DNA from: Plectrocnemia conspersa
Lineage: Eukaryota; Arthropoda; Insecta; Trichoptera; Polycentropodidae
Direction: 5' to 3'
Length of the DNA stretch: 64,000 nt
Assembly (NCBI GenBank): GCA_009617715.1
Contig: VTFK01000534.1
Coordinates: 62,001-126,000, forward strand
The position numbers and the translations under genes are program-made. How positions within the stretch are numbered: position 1 is the stretch's first letter; the number at the start of each line of letters is the position of its first letter. This document shows, in pieces, positions 36,299 through 63,300 of the stretch. The notes beneath the pieces are model-generated. The model searched no databases and had not been told where the DNA came from. It worked only from the letters and a program-made list of their open reading frames with translations.

Positions 36299-39200
36299 AT
36301 GGCTCTTGCAGTGAAGTTGCTCTTTTGGGCTTCGATTCTGTATGCTGCTGAAGCTCTAGTTCAAGATATAGGTGAGTTTTAATATTTATTAAAACCATAT
36401 GCTTTGCATCGTAAAGATAAATACTGTCCCCCCAGATTGTGTATTATCAATAAAAATATATTTATTTCTTGAAGAAATTAAAAACGTTAAGCTTCAAACC
36501 ATAAGTATCAATCGTTGTGGTCTACCACTTGCACCATTTTTCACCACTGAACAATATAGTTGTATTTATTGAAACGCAGGTTAAATATTTCATGTTATTG
36601 TCATGATCAATACAAAGTCTTAAGCGTGACACTAATTCACAGCCGCATTCTTTTCTTGATTGCTATCCTTTGTATAAATACTTTAGTGCCATGATGGCAA
36701 AGTTATTAGAGAGAAAGAGATTGACAATACCCGGTAACTATGCATCAAAGATGCTCGTAAGAACATATACAAAGATTTTTAAGAACTTATATTTTACACG
36801 TGTTTTCATTGGTTCGCATAAAATAAAACAAGATAAAAGACTTATTATAGAACTGTTTTCAAATCAAACATATAAAATAGTATGTTGTTTATTTCAGTTG
36901 CATCATTAGAACTAGAAGAAGCCATCGAGCGAGATGAGTTCGTGATTTTTTTGAAACAGAATAAGTCCTTAAAGTGGATTAGAAAACAACCTGAGACTTT
37001 ATTTGAGATGCGTTTTCCAGGAGAAAAGAGAAAATATTCGTTAAAGCTCAACAGAAATACTGACGTCGGTGGGTGTAACTTAAAAATAATTATCTTAGAT
37101 ATATGTAGTTGGTCCAAATCATTTAATTACTATTACCCTTTCACAGTAACCTTTAAAGGAGGCAAAACAGCCTTTAACTGGTCAGAAACCGGACTGAGAG
37201 ACGGAGGAGCCATGGCGTTATCAGTGGACCAGAATAGCCAAAGTGGAGCTCGATTGGTTCTGTACAAAAATTGCACAAAACTGGGAGAATACCGAATGCA
37301 ATTATCGTTTAGGGATATATATTCGCAGATGGAGGAATCTTCAGTTAAAATGGTATATTTATATTATCATACTCTTTCTCTTCGTTTCTCATAAAAGTAA
37401 CTAGGCTCTCAATACTATCAAAGATTAATTTAAAATTCTGTAGGAAAATTAAGATCTGATTTGTGAAAGTTCCAGATGGCAGATTCTTATGAAAGTGTCA
37501 TACGTTTGATTGGTTTGTGCTTATATACTCATTTAAAGATAGTGGAGGTGTTTTCGTGCATCTTGCACTTGACGTTTGAGCTAATACAATGATTTGGGGC
37601 TGAAACATACTTTTTTTTATCGTTACTTTGCTTTGCAAAAGTTAACCAGACAGTGGTCGTTTTTTAGAATTTTAATCTTATCAAGATTCATTGATTTACA
37701 TGCATTTTTCTGGTCCTTGATTAGAAACCACGTCAAAAGCAATAAAATCGTGCCGTCGCATTAAAATCACTCGGTTATCTAGCGTTCATATTAAACAATA
37801 TTACGACTTATAATAAGTGAGAATCGAATGAAGCTTATCTAAACTGAATTTTACTAATATGGGAGCGCAAAACACAATTATCCCTTTTCAGAAGTTTTCG
37901 TCTTGGACCCATAGCGAAGTAAGTTCTCTTATGGAGTGGAATCAACGGAAAAAACTAATGCTTAGATGTAAGATGCTCTACGGATTATTCCTCGTGGTGT
38001 GCAATATAGAGGCAAACTTTAAAAAAATAATATGATGCTACACTATGAGATATTTTTTGTAAATTTTATCTATATATTTTATTTTATTTTATGTATATAT
38101 AATATATACATAAAATAAAATAAAATATATAGAAACCATAAAAATAGTGTCGTTAATATCTGTCATTTTACATTGTTAAGGTTTTTATATGTTTCATATT
38201 TATTTTCGCTTTTTTTTTTTTATATACGTAATTAAAAAAAAAAAAAAGTATTCAAAAAATACTTTGCAATGAGAGCGGGTATCAATTATTTTTGCAGGTG
38301 GGGGGGGGGCTCAAAATTTTAAGTTTCGCCACTGCCTATATCAGGCCCGACTATCCAAGAAGCCCTGGCGCGGCGGTGGCCCCGAAGGCCAATATCTTCT
38401 TTGTGGTGCGAGACTACTACATCAGTCTTCGAGAGCGAATGTAGCTAAGATGATCGTTAATACTTCACCTGTTGGAAGAGGAAGTGGGGGGCTTGATAAC
38501 ACACACATTTCAGAGATTTAAAGGGCTCATCAATGAGCCATTCCTTATCTCGTCGTGCAATTAAAAATTGTCTGTGTGACCATGTATTTGCCACACAAAT
38601 GAATGACTGTCAAGCTAATCACAGCTATTTTTGTTAAGAATTACAATGCAAATACAGGGACGTCATTTTAGATTTTAAGGGGGGGGGAGGAGGGAGCAAA
38701 AGTGATCCAGTCTGTAGTCGTTTTATTTAAATATTTCTATTTTATTAGAATTCACAGTATTTCATTAAGTGACATGCATTTTTCTGGCTAAATACAAAGA
38801 AAGAGGCAAACGCCCTACCAGCCCCCCTCACCCCCAAATGACGTCACTGTTTAGAAATCACATCTAAAGCTGCTTTTTTTTGACGTCTAAGGGTTATCTC
38901 GGTCAATTTAGCCAGATTTTCCAGAGAGGTGTAGGGGGGGGGGGGTAATAGTTAGCTGTATAATTCAATATATTTTTTTAATATTTCGAATTTTTTAAAA
39001 ATGACGTCCTTGTTTAGAAACAACGTCAAAAGCAAATATTTGCAGCACAATAAGCTTGAGCTCTTGCGGATAGATACTACAGTACATATCGTTATACATC
39101 AGCGAGGATAAAAAGGTAGATACTACTGTCTCCTGAATTACTATCAACAAACACAGGGGGTCAGGACTATTTGACCTGTCGGTAAGGGTTTGGATTTTGT

Positions 39201-42200
39201 CAGACTCAAAAAAGGTAGATACTATCTGTCTCCTGAATTATGATTTATATATGGTCCTGGACTATAAGTGTTTTGTCAGACTATAAACAGTTAGAGTAAT
39301 GATATACAATAATATTTTATTAAATGTCATGCATTCTTTAGGCTTTGCTCTGAAAAATGCATGACATTTAAGGAGGGCTCCTTTATAGAATTCACGTCAA
39401 AAGTAATAAAATCATACCGTCGTCGTCGTAGTGGAAATGCTTGGTTATCTCCCTGACCGTACTCGGTTTCTTATGTATCTATCCTTAAATTATTGTATAA
39501 TAATTTTTGATATCACAAATATTTTCACATTTAATTGCACTTTTCACAAAAAAATATATTTACCAGTTATGATTGTGGTAACCTATTTGATTATTGCGAT
39601 TTGAGTGTTCTTCTTCATCTTTTTAGTCTCGAGATAAACGCTTCCCAGTTCACGTCATGGGTGGTTCTTTTAACGAAGTAATCGGCTGCAGCCAAACCTT
39701 CGATAGAAATAAACATGAAAACAATAACACTAAACCTCAGCAGCCGTCCAACGAAAACAAGCTGCACGACAAAAACTGCGACGGTAATTCATTTTAGTGT
39801 AACTACTTTAGCTTTAATATCACGATTAATGATTCGTTGCATCTTCAGATAAATTTGCGAGTTCTGTAAAGAGTCTGGTCGTGATGATCAGTCAGCTGAA
39901 GGACGAGGTGATCAAGCAGCGCGAAGAAATCCAAAATATGAGACAGACGTTAGAGAAGTGTGCGGGATGCAAACAGCCAGACGCCAGGATAACCTGCTGC
40001 TCTAATCCAGGACCCTGTTTTGCAGGTGAAAACATTTCTAAAGAAGCTTTCGCTAAATAATTAGGCTCAATCCAAATCGCACAAACATAACTACATCAAT
40101 AAGAGGATCTTGCTTTGTGAGCATCTTGTGACATTTGGTTTCACTGATCGTCATGTACGATAGTGTGACGAATATAATTATTGTTTGCCAAATCAAATCT
40201 TTTCTCGATTCCGACAGTTTCTATTTCTTGTAACTAGTTTCATTGTACGCTCCCCGACATATATGTATATTATTATATATAATACGTAAAGAATATCTTT
40301 AAGAAAAAAGTTTTGTCATGATTATTTTATTGTGACAAATTAGCAAAAAGATATTTTTCTCGCAAATTAACATTTCAGGAGTACAATGTCAAGATACTCC
40401 AGAAGGACCTAAATGCGGCAATTGCCCAAAAGGATACGTAGGAGATGGTCGATTGTGTAAGCCTGAATTCACATGCGCAAACAAAACTTGTTTTAAAGGT
40501 AAGGTTGATTAATGCCCATTAGTTTTTTTGCTAATATTTTGACTGATTTTTTTATTATCTTGTCAAATGATTTTCTTATTCATACTTCTTTCATAATATG
40601 TGTAATATATATGAAATCACACGCACAAAAAAACCTTGTTTTGCAGGTAAGCTTAATTTATAGAAGAAACTCCTGAACTTATTCAGCCCACCGCCCCTTT
40701 TTTAGCTATTAAAATGCTTAGCGCTAATCACAAACTAAAAGATACAATTTTTGACGGAAGAAGAGATTTTTGTTTTGTGTCGATGTTGCTTTAACCCTTT
40801 TAGTGCCAAGTGAAATTAGGCGGGGTATGCTAAGAATGCCAAGCGTTATTTTTACAAATATATTTAAAAAAAATATTTATGATTTTTTTTGTGTAGACCA
40901 CTATTTATTATAAAACAAAATTTAATCCAGTTTATAAAAATAAATACACAAAAAGCATAAAAAATGTACAAAAAAAATAATTAAGCAAGAAGCACACCCA
41001 CGTTCAAACGATGATCGACAACAGGGCATTAAATAACCACAGAAAGCGATTTGCTCTCATTTGCCAGTTAATTGTTTTTATCATATTTTGACTTATTTTT
41101 CCATTATTATGTGAAATGCTCTTCTTTCATTAATCTCTTAAAGAGACTAATAAATAAAACGACTAAAGATGACGAAGAAAATAAAGTGTGTTGAACTAAT
41201 AAATGCTAGATTTTTTCAGTGCACTATTTAAATTTTATTGTTACAAGGATCCATAGTCATTTATTAGCCTAAAAAAATTTTAATCTTACACATATCTGCT
41301 TTGATGACCCAAAAAAATATTTAATAATTGAATTTGGATATTAATATACACCCACTTTACTCTCCAGTCCTTGCTCCATCTGATTATTATTTGTTCAGGG
41401 CATTAAAAAAATGTTTAGATAAAAAAAAAATCTAGGATAGGTGAAAAAACTAATATAAATGACAGATGTAAGCACCAATAAATATTATTTGAATAAATAA
41501 ATAAATATGGAGAAAAAATATTCTACTTTCTATGAAAAAAACGGGCAAAGTACATATTTGAATCAACCCAATAGTATTAATCATTAGCAAAAAATTCTTG
41601 GCATTTCAGAAGTTAAAAGTCAAGATAATCCAGGAGGACTTAAATGTGGTACTTGCCCAAAAGGATACCTAGGAGATGGTCAATCATGTAAGCCTGAATT
41701 AACATGCGCAAACAAAACTTGTTTTAAAGGTAAGGTTGATTAATGCCCATTAATTGTTTTGCTACTATTTTGACTATTTATTTTATAATAATGTCAAATG
41801 ATTTTCTTATTCATATATCTTTCGCAATGAGTATAATATATGTGCTTTAATAAAAAAAAAAATTGGCGCAAAAAATTAAATTTTGTATGAAAAGAACATC
41901 AAAACTTTTGCATCAACCCACTGGTATTAATCATTAGCACCACATTCTTGGCATTTCAGGAGTTCAATGTCAAGATACTCTAGAAGGACCTAAATGTGGC
42001 CCTTGTCCAAAAGGATACCTAGGAGATGGTCGATCATGTAAGCCTGAAATTACATGCGCAAACAAAACTTGTTTTAAAGGTAAGGTTGATTTATGCTCGT
42101 TAATTCTTTTGCTACTATTTTGACTATTTATTTTATAATAATGTCAAATGATTTTCTTATTCATATATCTTTCGCAATGAGTATAATATATGTGCTTTTA

Positions 42201-45200
42201 AATTGGCAAAAAAATTAAATTTTGTATGAAAAGAACATCAAAACTTTTGCATCAACCCACTGGTATTAATCATTAGCACCACATTCTTGGCATTTCAGGA
42301 GTTCAATGTCAAGATACTCCAGAAGGACCTAAATGTGGCCCTTGTCCAAAAGGATACCTAGGAGATGGTCAATCATGTAAGCCTGAAATTACATGCGCAA
42401 ACAAAACTTGTTTTAAAGGTAAGGTTGATTTATGCTCGTTAATTCTTTTGCTACTATTTTGACTGATTTTTTGATTACAATGTCAAATGATTTTCTTTTT
42501 CATATATCTTCTTCAATGAGTGCAATATAATAATTTAAATAACTAAATTAATTAATTTAGCGAAAAAAATTCTATTTTGTATGAAAAAAACATCAAAGAT
42601 TTTGCATCAACCCACTAGTATTAATAATTAACACCACATTCTTGCCATTTCAGGAGTTCAATGTCAAGATACTCTAGAAGGACCTAAATGTGGCCCTTGC
42701 CCAAAAGGATTTTTAGGAGATGGTCGATCATGTAAGCCTGAATTTACATGCGCAAACAAAACTTGTTTTAAAGGTAAGGTTGATTTATGCACGTTAATTC
42801 TTTTGCTAATATTTTGACTGATTTTTTATTATCTTGTTAAATAATTTTCTTATTCATATATCTTTCCCATTTAGTATAATATATGTATTTAAATAAATAA
42901 ATAAATTTGGCGAAAATAAATTATATTTTGTATGAAAAAACATCAAAACTTTTGTATAAACCCAATGGTATTAATCATTAACACCACATTCTTGCCATTT
43001 CAGGAGTTCAATGTCAAGATACTCCAAAAGGACCTAAATGTGGTCCTTGCCCAAAAGGATACCTAGGAGATGGTCTATCATGTAAGCCTGAATTTACATG
43101 CGCAAACAAAACTTGTTTTAAAGGTAAGGTGGATTTATGCTAATATTATTCTTTTGATAATATTTTAACTGATTTTTTTATTATAATGTCAAATGTTTTT
43201 CTTATTCATATATTTTTTTCAATTAGTATAATATAATTATTTAAATAAATAAATAAATTTGGCGAAAAAAATCAATTTGTATGAAAAAAAACATCAAAAC
43301 TTTTGCATCAACCCAATAGTACAAATTTTAACACCACATTCTTGGCATTTCAGGGGTTCGGTGTCAAGATACTCCAGAAGGACCTAAATGTGGTCCTTGC
43401 CCAAAAGGATATATAGGGGATGGTCAATCGTGTAAGCCTGAATTCACATGCGCAAATATAACTTGTTTTAAAGGTAATGTTGATTTATGCCCGTTAATTC
43501 TTTTGCTAATATTTTGCCTGATCTTGATTAAAATGTCAAATGATTTTCTTATTCATATATCTTTCTTAATGAGTATAATATATAATTGCCTAAATAAATT
43601 AATAAATTTGACGAAAAAAATTCAATTTTGTATGAAAAAAACATCAAAGCTCTTGCATCAACCCACTAGTATTAATCATTAACACCACATTCTTGGCATT
43701 TTAGGAGTTCAATGTCAAAATACTTCAGAAGGACCTAAATGTGGCCCTTGCCCAAAAGGATACCTAGGAGATGGTCGATCATGTAAGCCTGAAATTACAT
43801 GCGCAAACAAAACTTGTTTTAAAGGTAAGGTGGATTTATGCTAATATTATTCTTTTGCTAATATTTTAACTAAATTTTTTATTACAATGTCAAATGATTT
43901 TCTTATTTATATATCTTTCGCAATGAGTATAATATATGTGCTTGACTAAAAAAAATTTGGCGAAAAAAAATTCAATTTTGTATGAAAAAAACATCAAAAC
44001 ATTTGCATCAACCTACTGGTATTAATCATTAACACCACATTCTTGGCATTTTAGGAGTTCAATGTCAAGATACTCCAGAAGGACCAAAATGTGATCCTTG
44101 CCCAAAAGGATACCTAGGAGATGGTCTATCATGTAAGCCTGAATTTACATGCGCAAACAAAACTTGTTTTAAAGGTAATGTTGATTTATGCCCATTAATT
44201 CTACTGCCAATATTTTGATTGATTTTTTTATTATAATGGTAAATGATTTTCTTTTTAATATATCTTTTTCAATGAGTGCAATATAATTATTTAAATACAT
44301 AAATAAATAAATTTTGCGAAAAAAATTCTATTTTGTATGAAAAAAAATATCAAAGCTTATGCATCAACCCACTAGTACTAATCGTTAATACCACATTCTT
44401 GGCATTTCAGGAGTTCAATGTCAAGATACTCCAGAAGGACCTAAATGTGGCCCTTGCCCAAAAGGATACCTAGGAGATGGTCGATCATGTAAGCCTGAAA
44501 TTACATGCGCAAACAAAACTTGTTTTAAAGGTAAGGTTGATTTATGCTCGTTAATTCTTTAGCTACTATTTTGACTGATTTTTTAATTATAATGTCAAAT
44601 GATTTTCTTTTTCATATATCTTTTTCAATGAGTGCAATATAATTATTTAAATACATAAATAAATAAATTTTGCGAAAAAAATTCTATTTTGTATGAAAAA
44701 AACATCAAAGCTTTTGCATCAACCCACTAGTATTAATAATTAGCACCACATTCTTGGCATTTCAGGAGTTCAGTGTCAAGATACTCCAGAAGGACCTAAA
44801 TGTGGTCCTTGCCCAAAAGGATACCTAGGAGATGGTCGATTATGTAAGCCTGAATTCACATGCGCAAACAAAACTTGTTTTAAAGGTAAGGTTGATTAAT
44901 GCCCATTAGTTTTTTTTGCTAATATTTTAACTGATTTTTTAATTACAATGTCAAATAATTTTTTCATTCATATATGTATCTTCCTCAATGAGTGTATTAT
45001 AATTATTTAAATAAATAAATAAATTTGGCGAAAAAAATTCTATTTTGTATGAAAAAAAACATCAAAGCTTATGCATCAACACACTAGTACTAATCATTAA
45101 CACCACATTCTTGACATTTTAGGAGTTCAATGTCAAGATACTCCAGAAGGACCTAAATGTGGCCCTTGCCCAAAAGGATACCTAGGGGATGGTCAATCAT

Positions 45201-48200
45201 GTAAGCCTGAATTCACATGCGCAAACAAAACTTGTTTTAAAGGTAATGTTGATTTATACCCGTTAATTCTTTTGCCAATATTTTTACTGTTTTTTTTTTT
45301 TATAATAATGTCAAATGTTTTTCTTATACATATATTTTTCCCAATTAGTATTATATAATTATTTAAATAAATTAATTAATTTGGCGAAAAAAAAATCTAT
45401 TTTGTATGAAAAAAACATCAAAGCTTTTGCATGCACCCAACAAGTACTAATAATTAACACCACATTCTTGGCATTTCAGGAGTTCAATGTCAAGATACTC
45501 CAGAAGGACCTAAATGTGGCAATTGTCCAAAGGGACACATAGGAGATGGTCGATCGTGTAAGCCTGGATTTACATGCGCAGAAAAACCTTGTTTTAAAGG
45601 TAAGGTTGATTTATGCCCTCTTTTTAGATATGAAAATGAAAACCCATTCCTTAGAAAACTCATTTTTTACTTAACAAACACATATTACATATTTTTTTGT
45701 ATAATTTTTTATATTTATTAAATATCGACTCTTATTTATTTACTGTTTTCAAATTTTCATAAAAAAAACTTTTTTTTTTAAATATTTTCTTTTCATAGAT
45801 GTTCGCTGCAATGACACCGTTGATGGTGCCAAATGCGGCACCTGTCCGAACGGATACATAGGCGACGGACGCAACTGTACCAGAAAGCCATCTTGCCAAG
45901 CAAGTACTTGCTTTCCAGGGGTAAAATGCAATAATACAGAAAAACCACCTTATTACCAGTGTGGCTCTTGCCCCGAAGGATACTCTGGAAACGGCACTGA
46001 ATGCAAGGACGTCGATGAAGTAATAATATAAATATATATCAGTACATACAATTATTATTCGTCTTAATATATATTCCTGTATGCAGTGCAAATTGGCAGA
46101 ACCATGCGATTCAAAACAGAAATGTCAAAACTTAAGTCCTGGATATATATGCGGGCCGTGTCCTAAGGGTTACTCTGGAGCCAAAAACGTTACAGGAGCA
46201 GGCGTTGAATACGCAAAACGTAATCGGCAAAAGTGTGAAGACATCAACGAATGTGAGGATGGAAAAAATGGAGGGTGTGTACCCAATTCTCAGTGCATCA
46301 ACGAGGAGGTAAGTTAACACATTACCTGCCATGATCCCCATTTGGTGTACCCGAATTTTATTACTCTACGGTTGGTGGTATTTGCTGAAATATTGAAATT
46401 GCCAATACAGTTACGTTTAGAAAAGTCTATTGAAGGCACAAAAAATAATCTACAATGGTTTTGTTAGATCGGAGTGATTGAAGTGAAAATTTAGAGGTAA
46501 ATCGCAAATAGAAAAAAGTGTATTTTTTATAATATAGTTTTTGTATTGTTTCTTTAAATTATAGATTGGTATCTCGTGCATGGCTAATTTATAGATTATA
46601 GTAAATGCCACTACTGAGAGATACTTATTTTATATGGAGAAAATAAATATTATATTGAAATTTAAATAACAGGGTATCTGTTAAAAATATCAAGGTATTC
46701 TGGTTCTATACGGATCGAAACCCTATATCCATCCAACCATTCTTTTCAGTTTTGAGTTGATCAAGATGTTAGGGATAGAAATATTACTGCTACTGGCACA
46801 GTGCGATATAATCGAATTGATTATTGTCCAACAAAAGATTAGTGTTAAATTTGATTATAGGATTGATGTTAAAAATTACATTTTGACAGTAATGGTGTTT
46901 AAATGTTATCGACTCATTTTTATTAAAAAAAATAAGTAGATGATCTAAAACTGAGATGACTAAAAATATTACTTTTGGTCACGCCTGAAATTACTTATAT
47001 TATGTAATGATTTTATCTGAAATGTGAGTGTGCTACGAAGAAATACATAAATAATGACAATTTGTGTACATTACAGAAAATTAAAATCAAAATCGGTTTA
47101 TACATCAGCGCGATTAAGCACGTTACGTAAAATTCTTTAAATCAGTAGAACATACTTTTATTTTTTATTAAAAATTTAGGGTACGTTTAAGTGTCAGTGC
47201 AAAAAGGGGTTCGTAGGAAACCAAAGAGTGGGTTGCCACAGAAAACCTTACCTGTGCGAAGATGGGACGTTGTGCGACCGTAATGGTGAATGTTTAAATT
47301 CATCTAGTGGGGGTTACCAATGTGTATGTAAAACGGGATGGGCCGGAAACGGAGTCATTTGTGGCCAAGATCGAGATTTGGATGGATGGCCGGACTCAGA
47401 TCTGATGTGTGAAAATCCAAACTGTAAACAGGTATTTAATGTGTTTTGATTTTAGTTAAAATATTTTGCCCTATAACATTTCATTTTTTAGGATAATTGC
47501 TTAAAAACTCCTAACTCTGGTCAAGAAGATGCCGACAGAGATGGAATAGGAGACGCTTGCGATACAGACGCTGATGGCGATAGAATACCAAATGGAAATG
47601 TTTGTTGCTTGTTTAGTATATATATGAGATTACCTTTATTGTAATTTTATGTTCTATTTTTAGGATAACTGTTATTTAAAATTTAATCCAAATCAAACCG
47701 ACAGCGATTATGGAGGCGGCGACCAGGTTGGAGATGTTTGCGACAACTGTCCATTAGTGAAAAACAGTGGACAGGAAGATGTCGATAAAGATGGACTCGG
47801 AGATGCTTGTGATCCTGATATAGATAACGATGGTAATATATATGCTGATAAATTTTGTAACCAGTATCGTATTTTTAATTTAACGAATGCTCTACATTGT
47901 TTGGAAAGGGCGATATTCACGTTATACTGATTTTGGGCATTTTATATCCATGTTTTCCAATAAATAAAAGGTGATCCAAACACACAAATTTAAGGATATT
48001 TTCTAATTTTTTTAAAAATCGAACATTTGGTATATTTTATTAATAATAAAAAATAATATTAATTAAATGGATCTGGATCGTTTGCAACAGCCAATCTCTT
48101 AGATATAATTTTTGATGACTTTTTCGTACAATTTGGGTGGTATCTCGGTTATAATTTAGCGGATGTTGGTTTTTAGGTCCTCCAACTTTTCGGCTGTCTA

Positions 48201-51200
48201 CTGTCCATTAGTGAAAAACAGTGGACAGGAAGATATCGATAGAGATGGAATTGGAGATGCTTGCGATTATGACATAGATAACGATGGTAATATTTAGATG
48301 CTTATGAATTTTGTAACCAACCAAAGAATAGAAAAAGTTAGTTGTATGGCTTTTGCAATTAAACTAACTTTTGTTATTTATGTTTTACTGTTTTTTTGTT
48401 TGTTAATTCAGTAATACATTAATTTGTATTGTTTGTCATTTCAACATACGTTATTTCATTAAATAGTATTAAATTATTAAGGAGGGGCCAGTAAATACAT
48501 ATAACATTAATTTGTTCTGAGACAGAATGATAATTTGGCCCCTTAACTAGGAATGGTTGCCCATGAGTGATGCTCATGTATCCGTTGCGAGCTACCTTGG
48601 TATCCGTTGCGTGTACTTGGGCCCTACGAGTCCAACCCTATGGGCGGGCACAAAGCTTGCGACGGCCGGCTGAGTGGGGCCCCCGTAGTACATATTTTAT
48701 CGGAGTATGCATTATATTTGAATGAAATAATGGCATAAATAAATTTTACTGTAAAATATATTTTTATTTTACACTTCATATGCCATGCTCAATTGGGAAC
48801 ATTCACAAAAATCTATTTTTTGAAGTGTTTTTTTTTCGGTAAAATATTTTACTGAATCTATTTTTCAGTTAAAAAAATACATGTATTCAAAAAAATAACA
48901 GGAAAAAAAATCTGGCAGGTAATGGGTTAAATCGTAGGAACGTAAAACATATTTTTCCCGAGTGCACGGGGAAAGGTGCTCTCGTTGGCTGGCCTGCATT
49001 GCTTTACACTGCATGCATTGCGTATCATCATTGTCGCAACACCACCCCCTTGATCTTCGAGGGATGTAAATGTTGCCTCAGTCGCAGTCTTGGCCCTCGG
49101 TTTCCCTTAGGGCCGAGCCTTTTGGCCCTGTTTGCGTTACTCTGCTATGCTTTGTTCGTTATTAGTAGTGCCTCGCGCCCTATCTCAGACGACCAGCCCG
49201 AGAGGTCACTTCCCCTCAAGGGTTTGGGTTTTAAACCTAATGAGGGGTCCCTGAGCGTGTTATCGACTGGCGCTGATGCCCATGTACTACCGGTATTTCA
49301 TTTTGTAATACCGGTAATATCGAAGGTCGATTTTCGCCGCAGAACCCAAAAATATTATCAGAAATAAATAGGGTTTCAAAGTTATTACAAATAAAATATA
49401 TTGACATTATTACAGCAATATACGTTTTACAATCAGCCATTAGTGAATGAAAAACATATTGAAATATGTATTTATATCAGCAATAAGATGGCCTCTAAAT
49501 AAAAAATCAAACCTTTATTTAAGTTAATTTAAGTTGATTCATACATTGAACTCGCTAGTTACAAATTCAATAATCAAAATGTTAACCTTAATTCTTTTTT
49601 CTATTAATATTGTCCGCAATTTTTTTGTCCGGAAAAATCAGTGTCCGGTAAGTTCCTGTCCGCAAAAATCTGTCCGAAATTTTTGTGTACGGAAAAATTC
49701 CTATTTGTAAAAATTCTGTTGAGATATGCTTCTAAGAATCGAATAAAGGAAGCATATCTAAACCAAATCTTGCCCAATAGGAAAGGGCAAAAAACAATTA
49801 TCTCTTCTCAGAAGTCAAAAATTCACGTCTAAAGCAATAAAATCGCGACGGCACCGACACGATTTTATTGCTTTTGACGTGACTTTTTGACTTCTGAGAA
49901 GTGATAATTGTTTTTGGGCCCTCCTATTGAGCAAAATTCGGTTTGAATACACTTTGATGGATAATTTAATATTAGAATCTCATAGTATCGGTAAGGAGAG
50001 TTATCATATTTTTAGAATATAATAGTTTACTACGGAGCAATGTCTGTATGTACTTCTTCTTCCGCTCATTTTCGACTTGAACTAATGTAAGCTATTCATC
50101 TTTAATTAGTTTTAGATTTATTAGATTGTATTTGGGCTTGAAATGCAGTTTATACATTCACTGTAACATTTTTACATCGCATGTAAATAAATGATGATAA
50201 GTATGTAAAACTATAAAACTACATATAGAAAAGATAAAATCGTGTAATTTTACTAGCACCTGCAATATAAATTATATTTTTACTGGTAAAAATATATATC
50301 TGCTAGGGAAAATGTGTTTAGATATGATTTTACTGAAATGACATATTTTAATTTTTTCATTTTTTCTGGCAAAATTCAAGATGGGACAAATGCCCCCACC
50401 TACTCCCCCTAAATGATGTTCCTGTGCAAGGACCATTAGTTACCAACAAAAACACTTTTAAACAAAGCTGACTTACAAACTTGTTCTAATTAATCTTAAT
50501 TATGTAAGGTATACCAAATCACTCTGATAACTGCCCTTATCATGTAAACGTTGAGCAAGGAGATAGTGATGCTGACGGAGTCGGTGACGTTTGCGACAAC
50601 TGCTTACGAGTATCGAACAAGGACCAAGAAGACAGTGATATGGATCTCATCGGTGATGCTTGCGATAGTGATGTGGATAGGGACAGGTGACTTTCTATTC
50701 ATACATTAAACATAACATTGAAGGGAATCTAATTTATTCTTCTCACAATTTAGAGATGGAATTCAAGACAACTTAGATAATTGTATCAACACACCCAATT
50801 GTAATCAGTTAGATGTTGATAACGACGGTCATGGAGACGCGTGCGATGCAGATGCAGATAACGACGGAATATTAAATCTTGAAGATAATTGTCCGTTACT
50901 TTACAATCCGTCCCAAATTGATGAAAATCGTTAGTAAATTATAAATTAAATATACCAATGTAAATTATCAGATGATAATTTCATACTAGACATTTTGAAT
51001 AATAACTTTAGAATGATTTATTTTACAGTTAATGGAGTAGGAGATTGGTGCGAAGACGATTTTGATTCTGATGATGTTCTAAATGATGAAGATAATTGTC
51101 CCAATAATTCAAAAATTCATTCAACCGATTTCAGGTGAGACTTTCAGCAATGAAGTAATAGGGTTTCGAATTTTAAGTTTGTTTGCTTCACTAAAATAAA

Positions 51201-53910
51201 TTAATATGAATTTAAAGTTTGTCTAGTTCCCTTTAAAAATTATTATGCTTAGCACATTTATTCTGAATAGCTTCTAATGAGTTGTCTTATCGCTTCAAGC
51301 GGCTTTAATTCATTGCCATGAGAATAAATAAAAGATGTGACGTTAGCAATTATACACAGATTAGCCGCTGTAGGAAGAGGCGCCGCTGGCCGTCGAACTC
51401 CCATCATAGTAACCAAAAAAATTTTCTCCGCCGCTACGTCGTAGTGTTGCCAGTGTGCTTCCTATATCGCGGACAAGCAAATAAATTGGCATATACAGCG
51501 CCCCCTCGTTAGCAATTCATTAACAGTAGTCCGAAAGAAAATTACGAATAAAAGAATAAATTTTATTATTATTGTAGAGAATATCAGACTGTCAATTTAG
51601 ATCCTATAGAAGGTTCACAAATAGATCCATACTGGGAAGTATTTAACAATGGCGCTGAAATGCTTCAAAGGTTTAATAGCGATCCCGGTCTTGCAGTCGG
51701 ATATGATTCGTTCAACGGCGTCGATTTTGAAGGAACCTTTTTCGTAAATTCTAATCAAGATAATGATTACGTTGGATTTATATTCAGGTATTTTATTAAC
51801 TGAATATATATTATTTAATAAATTAAAATTGAAAAACACAGCCTTCTTTCTCAATAGTTATCAAAACAACCGCAAGTTTTATACTATGACGTGGAAGAAG
51901 CAATTCCAGTATTATTGGGAAGCTATTCCGTTCAGAGCCACGGGTGAACCTGGAATACAATTAAAGCTAGTCAATTCTAGCACTGGACCTGGACCAATGT
52001 TAAGGAACTCCTTTGTGGCACTCTGGAGATACACCAGATCAGGTATATGTCGACCTTCTTATAATGTTTCTCTTCTTACTAAAAGATTTTTTTAGCTAGT
52101 CGCTTCAGCAAGTCTATGATTTGTCTATTGTAGTATCTTATATATAATTGTTCTAATCTATTATATTGCACAAGTAATAATATATAAGTGTTAGTATTAG
52201 GTGGCAAATTTCAAATAGCTTGGACAAATACGAAAAATGGTAATTAGTACCAATTAAGCCACCAAACTTCGCTTCTTCAATATATGTCTTTATAAAGCTT
52301 CAAGAATAACGGTGATATTGTATAAACGAGAGCAATACATTGTGTTGTGGTTATCAATGGTTATACAAGTTATAGCATATATTTTATTGAAGGTCCAACC
52401 AGCTGCACCGTTATCTCTAAAGTTATTTAAACGGCCATTTTAAATATTTTTAAAATTAAATAACTAACTGAACAGACAAAAGGAGAATACTAAATTTATT
52501 TATTTGTATTAAATTAAGACTATCGTGACATAAAAGGTTACTCCAATGGGTCACAATGGTTAAAAAAAATACATTGTATTATTGCAATTTACAAAAATAT
52601 GTAATTAAAATAATACGTAAAAAGAAGCAAACAAAAAACATGACATATTAAAATTATATGATACGAACCAGACCTGCTCCTCATAGCTGACATTAAACAG
52701 ATCAATTTACAATACCAGCGTATTGAGGAGCCGGATGGTGACAGCTATAGGCGAGTCAGCAAGTCGTAGCCATAATGATCATCAAAAGAGGACGCGATCG
52801 TGATTCTCAAAGATTTTCAGGAACCCAAAACTGGAATTTCTCGAGAATAGTTTGTCGACAGCACCCTTCAGTGCGATCTTAATTCACCACACGTTGGAGG
52901 CCCGTCTTACCAGTATTATGAACTCCTCTCGAGGAGAAAGGACTCTCGGGGGACACCACGGGCGTTCCCGAGGGGTGGAGCTATGACAATGATGATAATA
53001 AAAACGAATAATACACTGATTAATGCTCGGAAAACATATTGCTATATATTTCTATTACATGTGAATAAAACATTTTATTAAAGATACTTTTATGTTTTGT
53101 AGTATTAAAAATTAACATTTTATGTTCTGGGAATGTGTCTCTTTTCAAACGGTTTATTATTTTTATCTTAAAGGTTAAGATACTTTGGAGTGAGCCAAAA
53201 AAGATCCCCTGGAAAGAATACACTGCCTATCGTTGGAAATTGCTTCACAGACCAAATATAGGTTTGATTCGTCTGAGCATATACGAAGGAAAAAATAAAG
53301 TTGCCGATTCCGGAAACATTTTCGATTCGACGTTAAAGGGAGGACGTCTGGGAGTTTACAGCTTCTCTCAAAAGATGATCATTTGGTCCAACTTAGAGTA
53401 TAGATGCAACGGTAATATTATATGTATATATATTATAGAATTGTTTATTTTTACGCAATATTATATTGAAAAAAAAAAAAATATTTAACGTGTATTTTTC
53501 GCGTTCATCTTTTATATGAACGAGTCTCTATATTTCGCCGAAGATTGTCCCAGCATCATCAGGAGTTCCCACATTTTTTAGAGTACACTTTTTTTACATC
53601 GCGCAGGTTTTTATTTGCATTTTTTTGTATTGGTTTTAATGTTAATAACACCTGAGTTTGAATATTATTACCCTCATTGCTCCGCGGATAGAAGCATACT
53701 GAATTTTTTTTTCAGTATGCTCCTATCCGCGCTCCTGATGATGCTGCGACAATTTTCGGCGAAATATAGAGACTCATTCATAACGCGAAAAAAACACGTA
53801 AATATTTTTATATATATTTGCAATTTACAGAAAATGTGCCGGAGATGGTTTATCGCGAGTTACCTCCTAAACTTCAACAAGAAGTGGGCATCGATTACTC
53901 TCGATTTTAA
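36299..53910 (+). CDS. Thrombospondin (pentameric type) with greatly expanded EGF region, TSP-1
   Basis: Exons: 36299-36371, 36898-37068, 37147-37352, 39627-39783, 39849-40025, then 13 array exons (listed under 40379-45599), 45799-46019, 46087-46308, 47180-47431, 47492-47599, 47664-47832, 50509-50686, 50754-50929, 51029-51134, 51578-51787, 51858-52042, 53174-53411, 53831-53910. About 1,496 residues if all are used. Order: signal peptide ([13 protein letters not shown]), N-terminal LamG-like domain (about 25-170), coiled coil from 203 ending EKCAGCK for oligomerisation, EGF domains, type 3 repeats with DNC and GDACD motifs, and a C-terminal domain with [18 protein letters not shown] and [10 protein letters not shown]. 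Thrombospondins are secreted calcium-binding matrix proteins; in flies the single gene acts at muscle attachments. Oddity: exon 51858-52042 ends in phase 1 but 53174 needs phase 0, and the conserved residues at this join are missing. Confidence 0.9.
38070..38132. repeat. Perfect 30-bp AT-rich inverted repeat
   Basis: Arms at 38070-38099 and 38103-38132 are exact complements separated by three bases, made of TATTTTATTTTATTTTATG-type sequence. It lies in TSP-1 intron 3, close to transposon debris, and could extrude as a cruciform. It may be the core of a decayed foldback element. Confidence 0.8.
38640..39460. repeat. Composite repeat debris in TSP-1 intron 3
   Basis: The block contains several G-run tracts next to AATGACGT motifs, GTGACATGCATTTTTCTGG-like sequences, a repeated AGGTAGATACTAC...GTCTCCTGAATTA pair (about 39112-39160 and 39213-39240) and one foldback-MITE arm near 39400-39450. 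It belongs with the composite family at 5820-6700. Confidence 0.45.
40618..40650 (+). pseudogene. Truncated EGF exon remnant
   Basis: CGCACAAAAAAACCTTGTTT followed by TGCAG and a GTAAGC donor matches the 3' end of an array exon (compare the end of copy 13) or of exon 39849-40025. The upstream part of the exon and its acceptor are absent. It lies inside the long intron between array copies 1 and 2. Confidence 0.55.
41343..41432 (+). mobile_element. Mariner transposase C-terminal fragment
   Basis: The translation reads [20 protein letters not shown], matching the YSPDLAPSDYHLF region of mariner transposases, which carries the last catalytic aspartate. The frame ends soon after. It sits in the roughly 1.1-kb intron between EGF array copies 1 and 2 and helps explain why that intron is longer than the others. 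Confidence 0.75.
48050..48197 (-). mobile_element. Tc1/mariner-family transposase 3' fragment
   Basis: On the minus strand the translation gives [12 protein letters not shown], then [15 protein letters not shown] with an in-frame stop between, resembling the C terminus of Tc1/mariner-family transposases. The fragment abuts the duplicated type 3 exon piece at 48199, so the two events may be linked. Confidence 0.5.
48199..48325 (+). pseudogene. Duplicated fragment of a thrombospondin type 3 repeat exon
   Basis: This is homologous to 47743-47865, the 3' half of exon 47664-47832 plus its donor and the first bases of the next intron. It encodes [20 protein letters not shown] and IDND with no stop, and changes are mostly conservative. 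A pyrimidine-rich tract ending CCATTAG would allow an acceptor at 48211, giving a 75-nt phase 1-1 exon 48212-48286. Including it would add one unpaired Cys to the calcium wire, so it may be a pseudo-exon. Confidence 0.6.
48540..49330. other. GC-rich island of unknown nature in TSP-1 intron
   Basis: Two stretches, 48540-48680 and 48960-49290, are much richer in G and C than anything around them. The second has a 122-codon open frame (48999-49367) with no family I recognise. The composition suggests a recently inserted element or foreign DNA rather than a host exon, since the flanking type 3 exons join in frame without it. Confidence 0.4.
49749..49966. repeat. Foldback MITE, longest copy
   Basis: Arms of roughly 100 bp (about 49749-49846 and 49860-49966) are inverted copies, including CAATTATCTCTTCTCAGAAG and its complement, AAAGCAATAAAATCG at the loop, and CCAATAGG with CCTATTG outside. 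The loop carries GCGACGGCACCGACAC, also seen at the single-arm copies 29824 and 63030. It lies in the TSP-1 intron before exon 50509. Confidence 0.8.
51318..51512 (+). repeat. Dispersed repeat family R2, copy 2
   Basis: It matches 10918-11120 through AATTATACACAGATTAGCCG, GTCGTAGTGTTGCCAGTGTG and TATCGCGGACAAGCAAATAA. It is inserted in the TSP-1 intron before exon 51578. The 64-codon frame over it is not a gene. Confidence 0.5.
52640..52990. repeat. Reversed family R3 copy plus retroelement-like tail
   Basis: From 52640 to 52830 the minus strand repeats family R3 (GAGGAGCAGG, ATTATGGCTACG, GATCGCGTCCTC). From 52890 to 52990 a more GC-rich stretch with CTCGAGGAGAAAGGACTCTC and CCCGAGGGGTGGAGCTATGA ends in ATGATGATAATAAAAA, which resembles the 3' end of a non-LTR retroelement. 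Both lie in the intron where the TSP-1 frame fails to close. Confidence 0.4.
53489..53799. mobile_element. MITE with about 70-bp terminal inverted repeats and a nested hairpin
   Basis: The left arm 53489-53565 (TTTTTCGCGTTCATC...GCATCATCAGGAG) is complementary, with few mismatches, to the right arm 53731-53799. Inside, 53684-53703 and 53711-53730 form a second 20-bp hairpin with one mismatch. The element fills most of the last TSP-1 intron, between exons 53174-53411 and 53831-53910. It has no coding capacity. Confidence 0.8.
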
Positions 53911-54162
53911 AGAAAATAAAGATGTATGTAAATGTAAAAAATCCGACGAGCATTGAACCTAGCTTGTTTAAGATGCATAGTATTGTCTTTTAAATAAATT
54001 AATAATTTATGATTATATAAATATTAATAGTAATAAAAACAATGGTACGATTATAAGATTTTTTTTTACTTAATAAATTTATTATATAATATGTTTCTCT
54101 GTCGGCGTACTGAAGAGATATCTATTGGGTTGTACGTTAGATAAACAATCCTGCCTCATTTT

Positions 54163-54374
54163 GTCCACTTGAAAGAGTGTTTGGTCATGTTAAATTTCAA
54201 TAAAAAGCAATTTTCACGCCGTTTCATAACCATGGACGAAACATGGATACATCACAATACACCAGAAACAAAGGAGCAGTCGAAACAGTGGACGGCTCCT
54301 CCCTCTGATCTTGAAACAAAGTTAAGCAAAACCATAAGATTAGTGACAATGGATCGAGATACAACTGGATAATT
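54163..54374 (+). mobile_element. Mariner transposase fragment
   Basis: The translation contains FSRRFITMDETWIHHNTPET and KEQSKQWTAPP, the diagnostic mariner block around the second catalytic aspartate. It stops after DRDTTG, and both ends of the transposase are missing. It is a dead fragment immediately upstream of the aminotransferase exon relic. Confidence 0.85.
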
Positions 54375-54439: not shown

Positions 54440-54694
54440 AATTTTGTGTCATTCTAGAAGCAAATTTATTGGACAAATATGTGGATATTTTATTTAAATC
54501 GAGCTACCGGTGAACGCTGATTGTTGTTCCACAGGGAAAAGCCCTGGGCCATTTCTGATTCAAGGTTCAACGTATATCCGAATGATGCTATGCATGTGAA
54601 GCTGGACCATACGCACAAACTATTGACTTTCATGCACGTTGAGGCCGCTAAAGGTTTGTGTTTAAAATTAAATAAATACTTGGGAGTTCATTAA
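54440..54694 (+). pseudogene. Relic of aminotransferase last exon, third copy
   Basis: The sequence follows exon 7 of copies A and B: ATTCTAGAAGCAAAT, TATTTTATTTAAATCGAGCT, ACCGGTGAACGCTGAT, CCATTTCTGATTCAAGGTTC, GAGGCCGCTAAAGGTTTGTG, then a matching CATTAA stop. It has several internal deletions that break the frame, and exons 1-6 are absent. It combines bases found in copy A and copy B, so it is a separate old copy. Confidence 0.85.
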
Positions 54695-57305: not shown

Positions 57306-60300
57306 ATGGCTCTTGCGGTGAGGTTGCTCTTTTGGGCTTTGATCCTGTATACGGCTGAAGCTCTAGTTCACGATCCAGGTGAGTTTTTACTATTTTTTTA
57401 TATTTATAAAAAACATGTGCTATGTAACGTGAAGATAAACATTGTCCGTCAGTTGGTGAAAAAGATAATAGAGGTCCATCTTCATCAAAGGTTATCTGTT
57501 GGAGAAAAGCAATACCCGTTGTGTTTTGACAAGTTTTGTAACGATTGCGGTACTGTGCCTTATTGGCTCTATATAAGGCAGTACGCACAAGGGACATGTC
57601 GAATATAACATGACACCAGCTGTTTGTCTCCTTTTAAGGCGTCTTGTCACATGTGCCTTCTTCTGGTCCACGGACAGTGTGGGCAGATCAACCTTGCGAC
57701 ACGAAAAAGAAACTCATTGTGTACCCAGAATATATTTTATTATACTCAGGTGCTTTCGAGAAAGATTTCTCTTAGATATTTATATATTATAGATATTACA
57801 GAATATGGCGACTTTTTTTTCGTTTCAAAAGATCCACTCAATATGAATAAGATCAGTTCAATTTACGAGCATATCTCTTTGTATAAAATCTAAATCAAGA
57901 TGTTTGCCACAAAAATATTAAATTGACTTTTTTTAAATATCGGTTCGTAAGGGACAATTAATTTTTTTTAAATATCGGTTCGTAAGGGACAATTAATTTT
58001 TTTTCCGAAAATCATAGAGAGAAAAAGATAAGAACTATTTTGTTGTCGATGTACATATACAGGTTTTAGAACATGATAACTGATTTTCAATAAACGTTTT
58101 TGAAAAAAATACTTAATTTACTAGTCATCTGATCTTGCTTATAAATAGATATTTATAAATCAAAAAAATAATTTGGAGAAAAAATTTATACAAAAAATTA
58201 AATTTTATTTTATATATATGCATGGGTTTTGGTTCAATTTATTTAAAAGTATTATAAAAAACATTATGTATCTTTTAATCAAGGTCGGAATAACGTAGTC
58301 TGTAAGGTCTCAGACTAGTCACCCAGAGGCCGCGGGTTCGAGCCATGGCACCTTACTTGAATTTTTATTTATAAAAATGCGCTAATATTAAAAACCGACC
58401 CTAGATGCAAAGTCACAAATATTGATTATGTCACATCATTATTTATATAGATGTTACAGATTTTCAGACTGAAAAGTCTGGTGGTTAATACTTACTTGTA
58501 GGTATTCATTGTCTGATTAACTTATCCAGTTAATACATAATTAAATAAATAAATAAACATTAGTTTTTTAGTATCTGAAAAAATGTCATTTTAAGTTTTC
58601 ATTTTCGTTTATATTTATATTTTTTTAGATGGTTATAAAATTATTTTTCCTTATTCTTATATTCGTATTCATTTTTAAATAACCGCAAATTAGTCTGAAT
58701 TGATTTATAAATACGACAAAATAGGCGACTAAATCATGACACACCTGTCTCTATCACCGCTTAATTTACATAATATGATAGTTAGTTAGTTACGCATATC
58801 ATTGTTGTCTCTAAAATACTATCGTTATATAATTTTTCATTTCAAAATTATTCAATATGGAAGTTTAAAAAAAAAAATAAACTGTTAGACAATTTTCATT
58901 CAATTATTATTTGGAACTACTATAAAATACATAACTCACATGTACAAATATATTTGGTAAAAGGTTTTTACTTCTGTAATTTAAATTTCAAAAGCTTAAA
59001 AAAAAAACATTTTCATTATACTTTTTTTTTAATTGATGTTTTTTTTTACTATTTAAATACGATACTATTATCATTTTTTATATTTAGACTAAAACTTCAA
59101 ACTCTTGTATACACACTTAGTCCGCACGAGCGAGAGATAATAAAAAAATAGTTGCATTCCGATCTGTAGTGTCCAGAAGAAGTTCGACCGGTGATGGGTC
59201 ACGTATCCCTTACAAGGAAGACAGTTTCCAGTCTGATGCACCGTTATACCCTTCTTTTTGCATTCAATTGTGCCATTTCATTTTTACCGATTGTTTCGCC
59301 ATCTCACAATATCCATCGTTACGATAGCCATATGGCGATTCGATCGACGAAATATGCTATAGTCGTTAGTGCTTTACTACTTATAAAAATATGGCTAGAC
59401 TGTCACAGTCATGATTTCAAAATTGTCATCGTTAATACGCATTATAGAGATTCGTGCATTCAAGATAAAAAAAATAGCTCGATGTCACCAAGATGGTAAC
59501 GATACTATCAAGGTTTCCGCCCACACGTAGGACCGTTCTCTTTGGTGCGTACAGAGTGGCGCAAAAACGCCTTCATTTATGCGATAATGACTTTAACAGC
59601 CATTGAAACAGTGACGCGTTAAGTAACTATATTAAAATCTAACTAAGATATCTGATATATTCCGTCGATGTTCTCATTGCTAAGGATCGTAACTTCTTAC
59701 GCCCTGAAACGTTTTTCACCTCTTCATATTCTATTTGCTCAGGATTCCCCACATTTTTTCTACAGCTAGACGCTCCATATTATTTAACTTTTAAAATCGT
59801 TATTGTATTTATATTCTATTTAAGATTTATTGAAGAAATTACTGATCGGAACAGGTAGTGTTTCTTATTTTTGAAATTCATATTAATGATCTTATATATT
59901 TATATATTACAGATATTTATCAAACTTTTCCATTATATATAAATTAACTCTAACCTAATATCTCTAAAAAATATAACTTTACCTATAAGATAAAATCATA
60001 AGCAATCGAAAAATTAAGTTAATTTTGTATGAATTTGGTTTAATCATAGACAAGGTTCATATTTTGCAAATATACAATCTTTAGTTTCGTCATGACTATT
60101 ATCATTATTAGACTGTAAAGGTATTTAAAAAATTGGTTCTTCTAAAATCTGATGAAAGATATAATTATTGTTCTGCCTGAGAAGAAATTTCTTGAAAAAT
60201 GTAAATTATTTGACTGCATTAAGAACGTGTTTTTTGCTTAGATATTTTTTATCTACATATAAAGTTGAATTTGTAAACTTTTAGTATTCCTTTCGTAGTT

Positions 60301-63300
60301 ACAATGTCGATTCTTCGCTTTTTATTAACCATATGAGAATCATGAAAAATTAAAGATCGCCACAAAGACGTGGAAGATTACTTTAACGATTTGTCACAAA
60401 AAAAAGTGAAAAAAAAGTCTTGATTGACACAGTGAAATCTCAGTATAGCGAAGCTCACGAGACCTAAGAAAAAAATTCGTTATGTACGGAATGTAAGGAA
60501 GATGATATATTTTTAATTTATTTTTTTAGCAAAGCAATATAAAGTTGATTCTCAACTTTATTTTGCATTGATCTATTTTACTACTTTTTTTGTATTAGTG
60601 TGTTTTAATAATGTATTTTACCACTTTTCTATTACTAAATTTCGAATAATTTATTCTACATTTTTTTTATATATAAATCAGCTTATGTAATTTTTTATAT
60701 ATCAATTCAGAGGCTCTCACTTTTTTTTAGAAAATTAATATAAAATATTTTTTCACTGTAATTTATTGTTATAAAAATTATTTACAATAATTCAAATCAA
60801 AATATAATATATAAATATAATATTCTGTATTAATTATTTCTTTAGTTGCATATGTAAATATGTAAATATCTGGAGTACCCTAAAACAGTGAAAGATCGAC
60901 CGACGTACATGTACGGCGATACCGCTCAGATGGTTAATACTTAAGTGCCGTGACATTAAGAGCTCATTAGGGAGGTATAAATTGACAATTTAATTTGTCG
61001 AAATATAAATGATAACCGTACAGCAAAACTGATCGCAAAAACATTTATAATGGTTTTCAAAAGCTTACATTTCACACATGTTTTTATTGATTTGCGTAAA
61101 ATAATCCTAAAGCGACAAGATAAAAAACTTATTGATTTTTTTTATTAATATACGTCTTTTTAATTTCAGTTGCATCCATAGAACTAGAAGAAGCGATCGA
61201 ACGAGATGAGTTCGTGTTCCTTTTAAAACAGACCAAGTCTTTGAAATGGATCAGACAGCAACCTGAGACTTTATTCGAGATGCGTTTTCCAGGAGAGATG
61301 AGAAGATATTCGTTAAAGCTTAACAGAAACACAGACGTTGGTAGGTGTAACTAAAAATAATTAATTTAAATATTCATATGTAAGTTATATAGATTATTTA
61401 ATTGACTTATCCTTTTCACAGTAACTTTTGAAGGAAGTGAGACGGCTCTGAGCTGGTCAGAAAGCGGACTGAGAGACGGTGGAGCTTTGGCGTTACAAGT
61501 GGACCAAACTAGCTCCAGTGGAGCTCGATTGATTCTGTACAATAATTGCAAAAAAATGGCAGAGCGACATTTGGAGCTATCGTTCAGGGATATATATTCG
61601 CAGATGGAAGAATCTTCAGTTAAAATGGTATATTTATATAATTTTCTTCTTTCACTTTGTTCCTCATAAAAGATCATCGTAACTATTAAAGATTCATTTA
61701 CAATTTTGAAAGAAAGTTAAGTTCTGACTTGTGAAAATTCCAGATGAAAGATCCTAATAAAACATTATTCCAAAAGGAAGCCTCATAAGTTTGCTATATT
61801 CGCGCCTTGGTGTTGTTTTTTTCTGCTCTTGACATTTGGGCCAATGTAATGATTTATGGCAGAAGCATATTTTTTTTATCGATAATTTTCTTATATAAAC
61901 GACATTTTACGTAATGGTTATAATTTAAACATTTAGCAACGCTGTCACTGGTCATTGCTAGCCACACTTCTTTGACTTGTCGGCATTTGTTTTGATCCAT
62001 TTGTATACATTAAGTTTCTTTTGAAAGTGGATGTAATCCCTCCAAATTTTTGATCATTTCGTGTGCTTATATAACGTCGACATAACGAATAAACTTGTTC
62101 TGTAACTAAAAAAATATTTTTACGTTTTATTGTGCTTTTAAAAAGTAATAACGGTTAAGAGACGCTAAAAATCAAAATAAATGTGTAACATTTTCTTTAA
62201 AAAAATTAAAACAATGTTTCTAAAAAATCTAAACTTGCTTGGTGAGCATACATGCAACCACAAGCACACAATCAATGACCACTAATTATAGAGAACACTT
62301 AAAATAATTTCGTAAAGCTAGTGGATGACAATTGAAAATAAACTTTATTTATTTAGGATTAAAAATGTTATACTACACATTTTCAACAACATGTCAATTG
62401 CACTAGGGTTCTAAAGTCGACATTTTATTATTGTTTAAAAGTGCGAAATATATTCTAATGCCATCTTTCAATATACTCATATATACATAGATAATAATTT
62501 TATATTCGTTAAGCAGGGACGTCATTTGTATGAGGGGGGGGGGGCGCTAGATTGAATTAAGGCATAAACATCATGTCAATAATGAATCTTAATTAAATGG
62601 ATAAATATATTAAAATGGGCGTCCATTGAATGGCCAACTTTTGGCCCTCCCCAGGAAAAATCTTAAATTACGTCCCTGATTCTAAATCTATAATTCTTCA
62701 GTTACCCTTCAAAGCAAAACTAAAAAATCAAATCTTTGCTGAAAATATTTTTTTAAATATGTCATATTAGTAAAATCATAGCAAAGTACATTTTCCCCGG
62801 TAAATATATATATTTACTAGTAAAAAATAATTTATCTGGCAGATGCTTGTAAAATTATATAATTTTAAATTTCCCATGCATTTACATATACAACATTATT
62901 TATTTACATGCGATTTATAAATGTTACAGTGAATGTGTATTATTTTAGAGAAATTATATTTTTACTAGTTTTTTACTAACGTAAATATAATTTAACTAAT
63001 AGGTATTTTGGTCAATAGTCGCAGTGCCGTCTGTGACGGTGCCGACACGATTTTATTGCTTTTGACGTGAATTTTTGACTTCTGAGAAGTGATAATTGAT
63101 TTTTGCGCTCTCTTATTGATCAAAATTCGATTCAAATATGCTTTCAATATTTGATTCTCATTTATAGATAATATACCTATTTTTTGCAATATTAATATGT
63201 AATTACAATGTTTTTCCTTGAAATAAGCATAATTTATTTTAACTTTTTGGTTTCTCTATTTAAATTAAAATATTAAAAAACGATAACTAACTGGCCAATT

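Follow-up and report, generated by a model that had tools for sequence, protein, structure and literature searches.

Vertebrate subgroup B thrombospondins have four epidermal growth factor (EGF) domains; what, then, is to be made of an insect thrombospondin gene in which one EGF-coding exon stands 13 times in a row? Such a gene lies in a stretch of 64,000 nucleotides (nt) of the caddisfly Plectrocnemia conspersa (assembly GCA_009617715.1, contig VTFK01000534.1, positions 62,001 to 126,000, forward strand), hereafter the window. The explanation that we favour, and judge from the sequence to be rather probable, is that the array is a real, lineage-specific expansion of an exon in one of two adjacent subgroup B (pentamer-type) thrombospondin genes, and that it would build an EGF stalk with amplified N-glycosylation sites.

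The array occupies positions 40379-45599 of the forward strand, and all 13 of its exons are exactly 120 nt long, open, in phase 1-1 and bounded by AG and GT. Their acceptors read TTCAG in ten copies and TTTAG in three, and their donors GTAAGG in ten and GTAATG in three. Tandem Repeats Finder reports a period of 350 nt over the array, with 11.7 copies, 87% matches and a score of 5859. An earlier reading made from the letters of the window (the sequence-only reading) had proposed a thrombospondin gene with a tandem array of one 120-nt phase 1-1 exon, present 13 times and mostly at a 350-bp period, with symmetric phases and about 18 EGF domains; Pfam, tblastn, the exon phases and the joined exons agree with it in all of these respects. 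Scored against their own consensus, the array exons match at 108-119 of 120 positions. Outside the array, the best-scoring site of the window is the downstream EGF exon (68); the minus strand reaches at most 55 and 20 dinucleotide-block shuffles at most 56, so the repeat is no chance match.

Each array exon codes for the end of one EGF domain, with its last four cysteines, and for the start of the following domain, with its first two. Because every copy is 120 nt long and in phase 1-1, each extra copy lengthens the protein by exactly one EGF domain and keeps the frame. With every copy used, our reading of the joined exons predicts 18 EGF domains, 13 from the array and 5 downstream; a cysteine pattern that gives lower bounds, missing any EGF domain with a long insert or a lost cysteine, counts 17 cores in the same gene. 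The array units are identified as EGF by this kind of cysteine pattern and by tblastn with residues 278-318 of a thrombospondin from another caddisfly, Arctopsyche grandis (Trichoptera, Hydropsychidae; protein P0002), which, by the best match per exon, finds 12 of the 13 exons singly at E values of 7e-9 or better; for copy 8 the best match is longer and includes that copy. The relic of a fourteenth unit, decayed and interrupted by about 400 nt of unrelated sequence, lies inside the long intron after copy 1. Between copies 1 and 2, too, positions 41350-41410 look like a remnant of a mariner-type transposase.

The same symmetry would also suit a splicing cassette. With 13 of 13 exons alike in length and phases and with similar splice sites, any subset stays in frame, and transcripts might include varying numbers of copies, or a single one, so that stalk length would differ among them. 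In the sequence we noticed no mark of mutually exclusive choice, no search having been aimed at such signals, and the long arrays of scale insects and of an annelid that are described below each sit in one protein, as gene predictions. We regard a cassette as very unlikely.

The array belongs to a gene (gene 1) that spans 36299-53910 of the forward strand, from signal peptide to stop, and has the anatomy of a subgroup B (COMP-like) thrombospondin. Its N-terminal part is recognised by a signal-like exon and by tblastn with the N terminus of P0002; no Pfam family matches this part at 1e-3, and its laminin-G-like label rests on that tblastn match. A COMP-type coiled-coil follows (PF11598, 35.1 bits against a cut-off of 23.9), then the EGF region, in which the domains after the array match PF12947, PF07645, PF12662 and PF00008, and then type 3 repeats in five stretches (PF02412, 2.1e-53). 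The 27 joined exons contain no stop and have AG and GT at every splice site. Since the Pfam scan of these joined exons gave neither a vWF_C domain nor thrombospondin type 1 repeats, we assign the gene to subgroup B, whose coiled-coil, EGF domains, type 3 repeats and C-terminal domain, as in COMP, it has in common; a structure comparison matches COMP 3fby at E 2e-154. Subgroup B is described, in the portion of PMC1464143 consulted, as having one EGF domain more than subgroup A. One type 3 repeat exon is also partly duplicated, at 48202-48288, inside an intron of gene 1.

How recent is the array, and did its exons evolve as protein? The sequence-only reading had described exons and introns as nearly identical and had seen in this a pointer to recent unequal crossing-over or gene conversion. 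Measured divergence bears out neither near-identity nor high recent turnover. Mean divergence is 5.6% among the exons of copies 3-12 and 13.1% (0.144 when corrected) among 11 array introns, which excludes near-identical copies. Compared as whole units, no two of units 2-12 are identical: they differ by about 11% on average, and by 4.2% in the closest pair, 4 and 10. Neighbouring units do not resemble each other significantly more than units far apart do (Mantel r 0.18, p 0.12), and neighbourhood therefore gives no order of duplication.

These figures bear equally on whether the copies were multiplied through misassembly. Such arrays pose difficulties for assembly, and the true copy number may differ from the one in the contig; we found no evidence for an artefact, however, and every compared copy has differences of its own. 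Because misassembled copies are expected to be near-identical, the distances among units 2-12 disfavour false duplication, which we hold to be extremely improbable.

Among copies 3-12, synonymous divergence (dS, 0.139) equals intron divergence (0.144), replacement divergence (dN) is 0.038 and dN/dS is 0.27. A neutral expectation was derived from the mutation spectrum of the 11 introns and applied to 10, 12 or 13 exons. For the ten exons of copies 3-12 it predicts 41.8 replacement changes, 12.1 synonymous changes and 5.3 stops, where 13, 10 and 0 are observed. With replacement sites about four times less diverged than both introns and synonymous sites, we conclude that, during the divergence of the copies, purifying selection acted on the protein sequence that the exons of copies 3-12 encode.

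A second property of the units is a sequon for N-glycosylation, NKT or NIT, between the first two EGF cysteines. It is present in 12 of the 13 array exons, copy 13 having AEKP in its place (12 is the direct exon count; a pattern search gives 11 in the gene). Among 89 matched EGF cores in seven relatives a single one has a sequon at that site, where proline is the commonest residue in relatives, and both Arctopsyche thrombospondins are without a sequon in that EGF loop. The founding unit probably gained the N-x-T sequon between its first two cysteines and the site would then have been multiplied with the unit, so that amplification would have raised the number of potential N-glycosylation sites.

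The closest relatives by identity, among the matches listed, are the Arctopsyche proteins P0002 and P0114 (68% and 58%, both over the C-terminal part). Both have the domain order of the window gene and read in a single frame, but each has one array unit where the window has 13. That single unit, which shares 19-27 of 40 residues with the 13 array exons, likely corresponds to the founder of the array. The two Arctopsyche thrombospondins and a 2-aminoadipate transaminase-like record are all listed on a contig of one length (30,656,741) and so probably share a neighbourhood, as their counterparts do in the window. In a tree of 37 C-terminal regions, made from the window gene and 36 relatives hand-picked from 205, gene 1 joins both Arctopsyche thrombospondins with support of 99/98, a placement that the tree tool flags as unsure for so long a row.

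Gene 1 is followed by a second, tandem thrombospondin gene (gene 2), which leaves the window before its own EGF region. Over the first two TSPN exons the two genes differ by a dS of 0.61 and a dN of 0.11, a dN/dS of 0.18 that averages both copies. Set against the dS of 0.139 within the array, this makes the gene duplication look older than the present array copies, with the caveat that exchange between copies can make an array appear young.

Is a long EGF region, then, peculiar to this gene? Relatives were taken from the best 120 listed of 7990 scored candidates and the best 120 of 7984. A thrombospondin motif filter kept 151 of 215 proteins and removed 64, including P0072 of Biomphalaria and P0123 of Holotrichia. 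By the lower-bound cysteine pattern, 137 of the 151 have 3-6 EGF cores, 9 have 7-9 and 5 have 12-23. Few EGF domains are thus usual for subgroup B and not defining, and the 18 read in the window gene depart from a common trait; the view in the sequence-only reading that known thrombospondins have three or four does not hold, and many EGF domains as a feature unique to the window gene can be ruled out. The five EGF-rich records, with core counts that are again lower bounds, are those of Parthenolecanium (12), P0083 (14), Kerria (16), Planococcus (17) and Ridgeia (23).

Four of these records, the scale-insect proteins P0001 (Planococcus citri), P0003 (Kerria lacca) and P0009 (Parthenolecanium corni) and the similar P0083, have tandem EGF domains of the type seen in the window gene, placed after the N-terminal part and ahead of the type 3 repeats, and the P. 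citri protein is the top match by E value among those listed, at 53% identity. Their units are older and more diverged, with mean pairwise identities of 0.44-0.53, and of 58 matched cores a single one shows a sequon at the array site. Because P0001, P0003 and P0009 form a clade of their own in the tree (from which P0083 was absent), the scale-insect and window arrays are probably independent expansions. The COMP-like P0006 of the annelid Ridgeia piscesae, from a different phylum, has at least 23 EGF cores ahead of its type 3 repeats, the position of the window array, with a mean unit identity of 0.53 and a sequon in 0 of 22 matched cores. Mean unit identity in the window gene, downstream units included, is 0.74, compared with 0.44-0.53 in the other long arrays. 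Long thrombospondin EGF arrays with diverged units are therefore already in public records from distant lineages; particular to the window gene are a younger, still readable exon array, a sister lineage with a single unit and an amplified sequon. Among open-licence papers, in the first 20 titles per query, we found none on expansion of an EGF array in insect thrombospondins.

Two other comparisons were set aside. Mega-thrombospondins are very large relatives that, in the portion of PMC6526912 consulted, owe their size to leucine-rich repeats, cadherin or other domains and are reported there as not identified in arthropods; the Pfam scan of the window gene gave none of their extra domains, and together with that partial description it rules out membership. 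The byssus 'thrombospondin-1' of PMC4597212, as far as the consulted part of that paper describes it, contains type 1 repeats together with a vWFA domain and is not relevant here. Of the proteins removed by the motif filter, Holotrichia P0123 has 8 evenly spaced units, and Biomphalaria glabrata P0072 has about 10 EGF cores with thrombospondin domains, at least two of its units being fully identical, perhaps another recent EGF expansion.

Several observations weigh against a functional array in an intact gene. First, a slip of one base displaces the reading frame within the exon at 51858-52042, near 52012, where tblastn with Arctopsyche P0002 changes frame at 52013. As the frame stands, translation ends just past the next exon junction and the final part of the C-terminal domain is lost; this L-lectin-like domain is present by sequence, with PF05735 (TSP_C) matched in two pieces (1-109 and 119-197 of 198), and its frame is discontinuous. 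Second, copy 2 lacks one EGF cysteine, and Pfam hardly recognises the array units as EGF, giving one weak match (PF24973, 2.2e-6). Third, dN/dS climbs from its value in copies 3-12 to 0.34 in 12 copies (without copy 2) and to 0.41 in all 13, as expected of weaker selection, and the binomial test for a low replacement share is modest throughout (p 0.020 in copies 3-12, 0.028 when only copy 2 is left out and 0.096 over all 13). Fourth, the next Arctopsyche unit matches the array exons at 18-24 of 40 residues, nearly as well for most of them, which makes the identity of the founder exon uncertain. Finally, the branch of gene 1 in the tree is 0.87 long, against 0.02 and 0.19 for the Arctopsyche copies, as would be seen under relaxed constraint.

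Much of this would be expected if the array had been functional during its expansion, gene 1 were now a young pseudogene and gene 2 kept the normal function. The C-terminal frame slip, the cysteine lost from copy 2, the long branch and the decayed fourteenth unit with inserted sequence in the first intron of the array all fit such decay. So does the third N-terminal exon of gene 1, which, unlike that of gene 2, is shorter than its Arctopsyche counterpart; tblastn with Arctopsyche aligns this exon at 45% in gene 2 and at 28% in gene 1. The two adjacent aminotransferase genes, moreover, show no frame break within their exon matches (a statement about the matches, splice phases aside), which slightly disfavours a generally indel-rich or poor assembly as the source of the slip.

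By contrast, the 27 joined exons without a stop and with AG and GT throughout, the constraint on the array exons and the dN/dS between genes 1 and 2, averaged as it is over both copies, argue against decay, and a lone slip of one base could also come from a sequencing error. Outside the array, the coding sequence (2505 nt) contains 0 stops; in 300 runs of a neutral simulation, which starts from gene 1 and puts on it the whole 29% amino-acid divergence from Arctopsyche, the mean is 25 and the minimum 10. With these 0 stops and no other frame break seen in gene 1, the slip should be recent, an allele or an assembly error, and it may represent any of assembly error, allele or the beginning of gene loss. 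A decaying paralogue is to us a possible but doubtful account of the locus. The sequence-only reading had described the anatomy of the gene correctly, had gone too far on uniqueness, near-identity and the probable variation of copy number, and had overlooked the C-terminal frame break, the second gene, the long branch and the sequon.

Under the explanation that we favour, a real expansion in one of the two genes, one ancestral exon would have been multiplied together with its own intron, unequal exchange being the simplest route, and the expansion would postdate both the split from Arctopsyche and the duplication of the thrombospondin gene. All copies would be spliced in, giving an extended, glycosylated stalk that would run from the coiled-coil to the type 3 repeats and could space the cell- and matrix-binding end away from the assembly core. 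A more specific proposal, which we offer tentatively and consider unlikely as it stands, is that the caddisfly paralogue gained a new, long, N-glycosylated stalk by amplifying an exon with a newly acquired glycosylation site, as an extracellular spacer in a lineage-specific matrix. If this were true and all copies were included, a pentamer would have 5 x 12 = 60 extra N-glycan sites and five arms of 18 EGF domains each, and underwater silk or the silk gland would be the obvious place for such a stalk.

The locus shows a domain array under construction, with its exon-intron copies still legible; because they can still be read, exon duplication, the gain and spread of the sequon and purifying selection can be ordered relative to one another. 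Seen alongside the long arrays of scale insects and of the annelid, it suggests that the length of the thrombospondin stalk has been altered more than once in protostomes.

Table 1. Positions in the window of the exons of the two thrombospondin genes and of the array relic.
Feature	Position	Strand	Basis
Gene 1, exon 1, signal peptide	36299..36371	+	83% identity over 23 residues to gene 2 exon at 57306; donor GTGAGT
N-terminal (TSPN) exons 36898-37068, 37147-37352, 39627-39783	36898..39783	+	tblastn with Arctopsyche P0002; splice sites, phases
Coiled-coil assembly exon; its 3' end codes for the first two EGF 1 cysteines	39849..40025	+	Pfam COMP PF11598 1.7e-8; tblastn
EGF array exon copy 1	40379..40498	+	tblastn to P0002 residues 278-318
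Relic of fourteenth unit: exon 3' end and intron start 40612-40661, intron piece 41062-41136	40612..41136	+	blastn, best E 1.9e-8 and 5.5e-9
EGF array exon copy 2; one EGF cysteine changed to serine	41610..41729	+	
EGF array exon copy 3	41960..42079	+	
EGF array exon copy 4	42299..42418	+	
EGF array exon copy 5	42654..42773	+	
EGF array exon copy 6	43004..43123	+	
EGF array exon copy 7; sequon NIT, not NKT	43354..43473	+	
EGF array exon copy 8	43705..43824	+	
EGF array exon copy 9	44055..44174	+	
EGF array exon copy 10; 119 of 120 to consensus	44411..44530	+	
EGF array exon copy 11	44766..44885	+	
EGF array exon copy 12	45123..45242	+	
EGF array exon copy 13; no sequon (AEKP); of the 13, closest to the single Arctopsyche unit (27/40)	45480..45599	+	
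EGF 14-18, exons 45799-46019, 46087-46308, 47180-47431	45799..47431	+	tblastn; Pfam EGF_3, EGF_CA, cEGF, EGF
TSP type 3 repeats, exons 47492-47599, 47664-47832, 50509-50686, 50754-50929, 51029-51134	47492..51134	+	Pfam TSP_3 2.1e-53; tblastn
TSP C-terminal domain, exons 51578-51787, 51858-52042, 53174-53411	51578..53411	+	Pfam TSP_C in two pieces; tblastn
Last exon, with stop at 53910	53831..53910	+	tblastn, 64% to P0002
Gene 2, start: signal exon 57306-57378; exons 61170-61340, 61422-61627, 63773-63980	57306..63980	+	tblastn

The neighbouring aminotransferase genes are two tandem 2-aminoadipate transaminase-like genes upstream of gene 1, at 27812-29587 and 33170-35009. The joined protein of the second has an Aminotran_1_2 match and is 50% identical to Arctopsyche grandis P0206, the best match among 10 listed with E values up to 1e-100. 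Between the two thrombospondin genes, an open frame at 54521-54691 resembles, by eye, a last aminotransferase exon, and positions 54145-54369 look like a mariner-type transposase remnant; neither has a Pfam match. An Rfam scan of the window gave no match. Exons of a rhodopsin-type seven-helix receptor (7tm_1) lie at 572-883, where the match is below the curated cut-off, and at 18628-18804.

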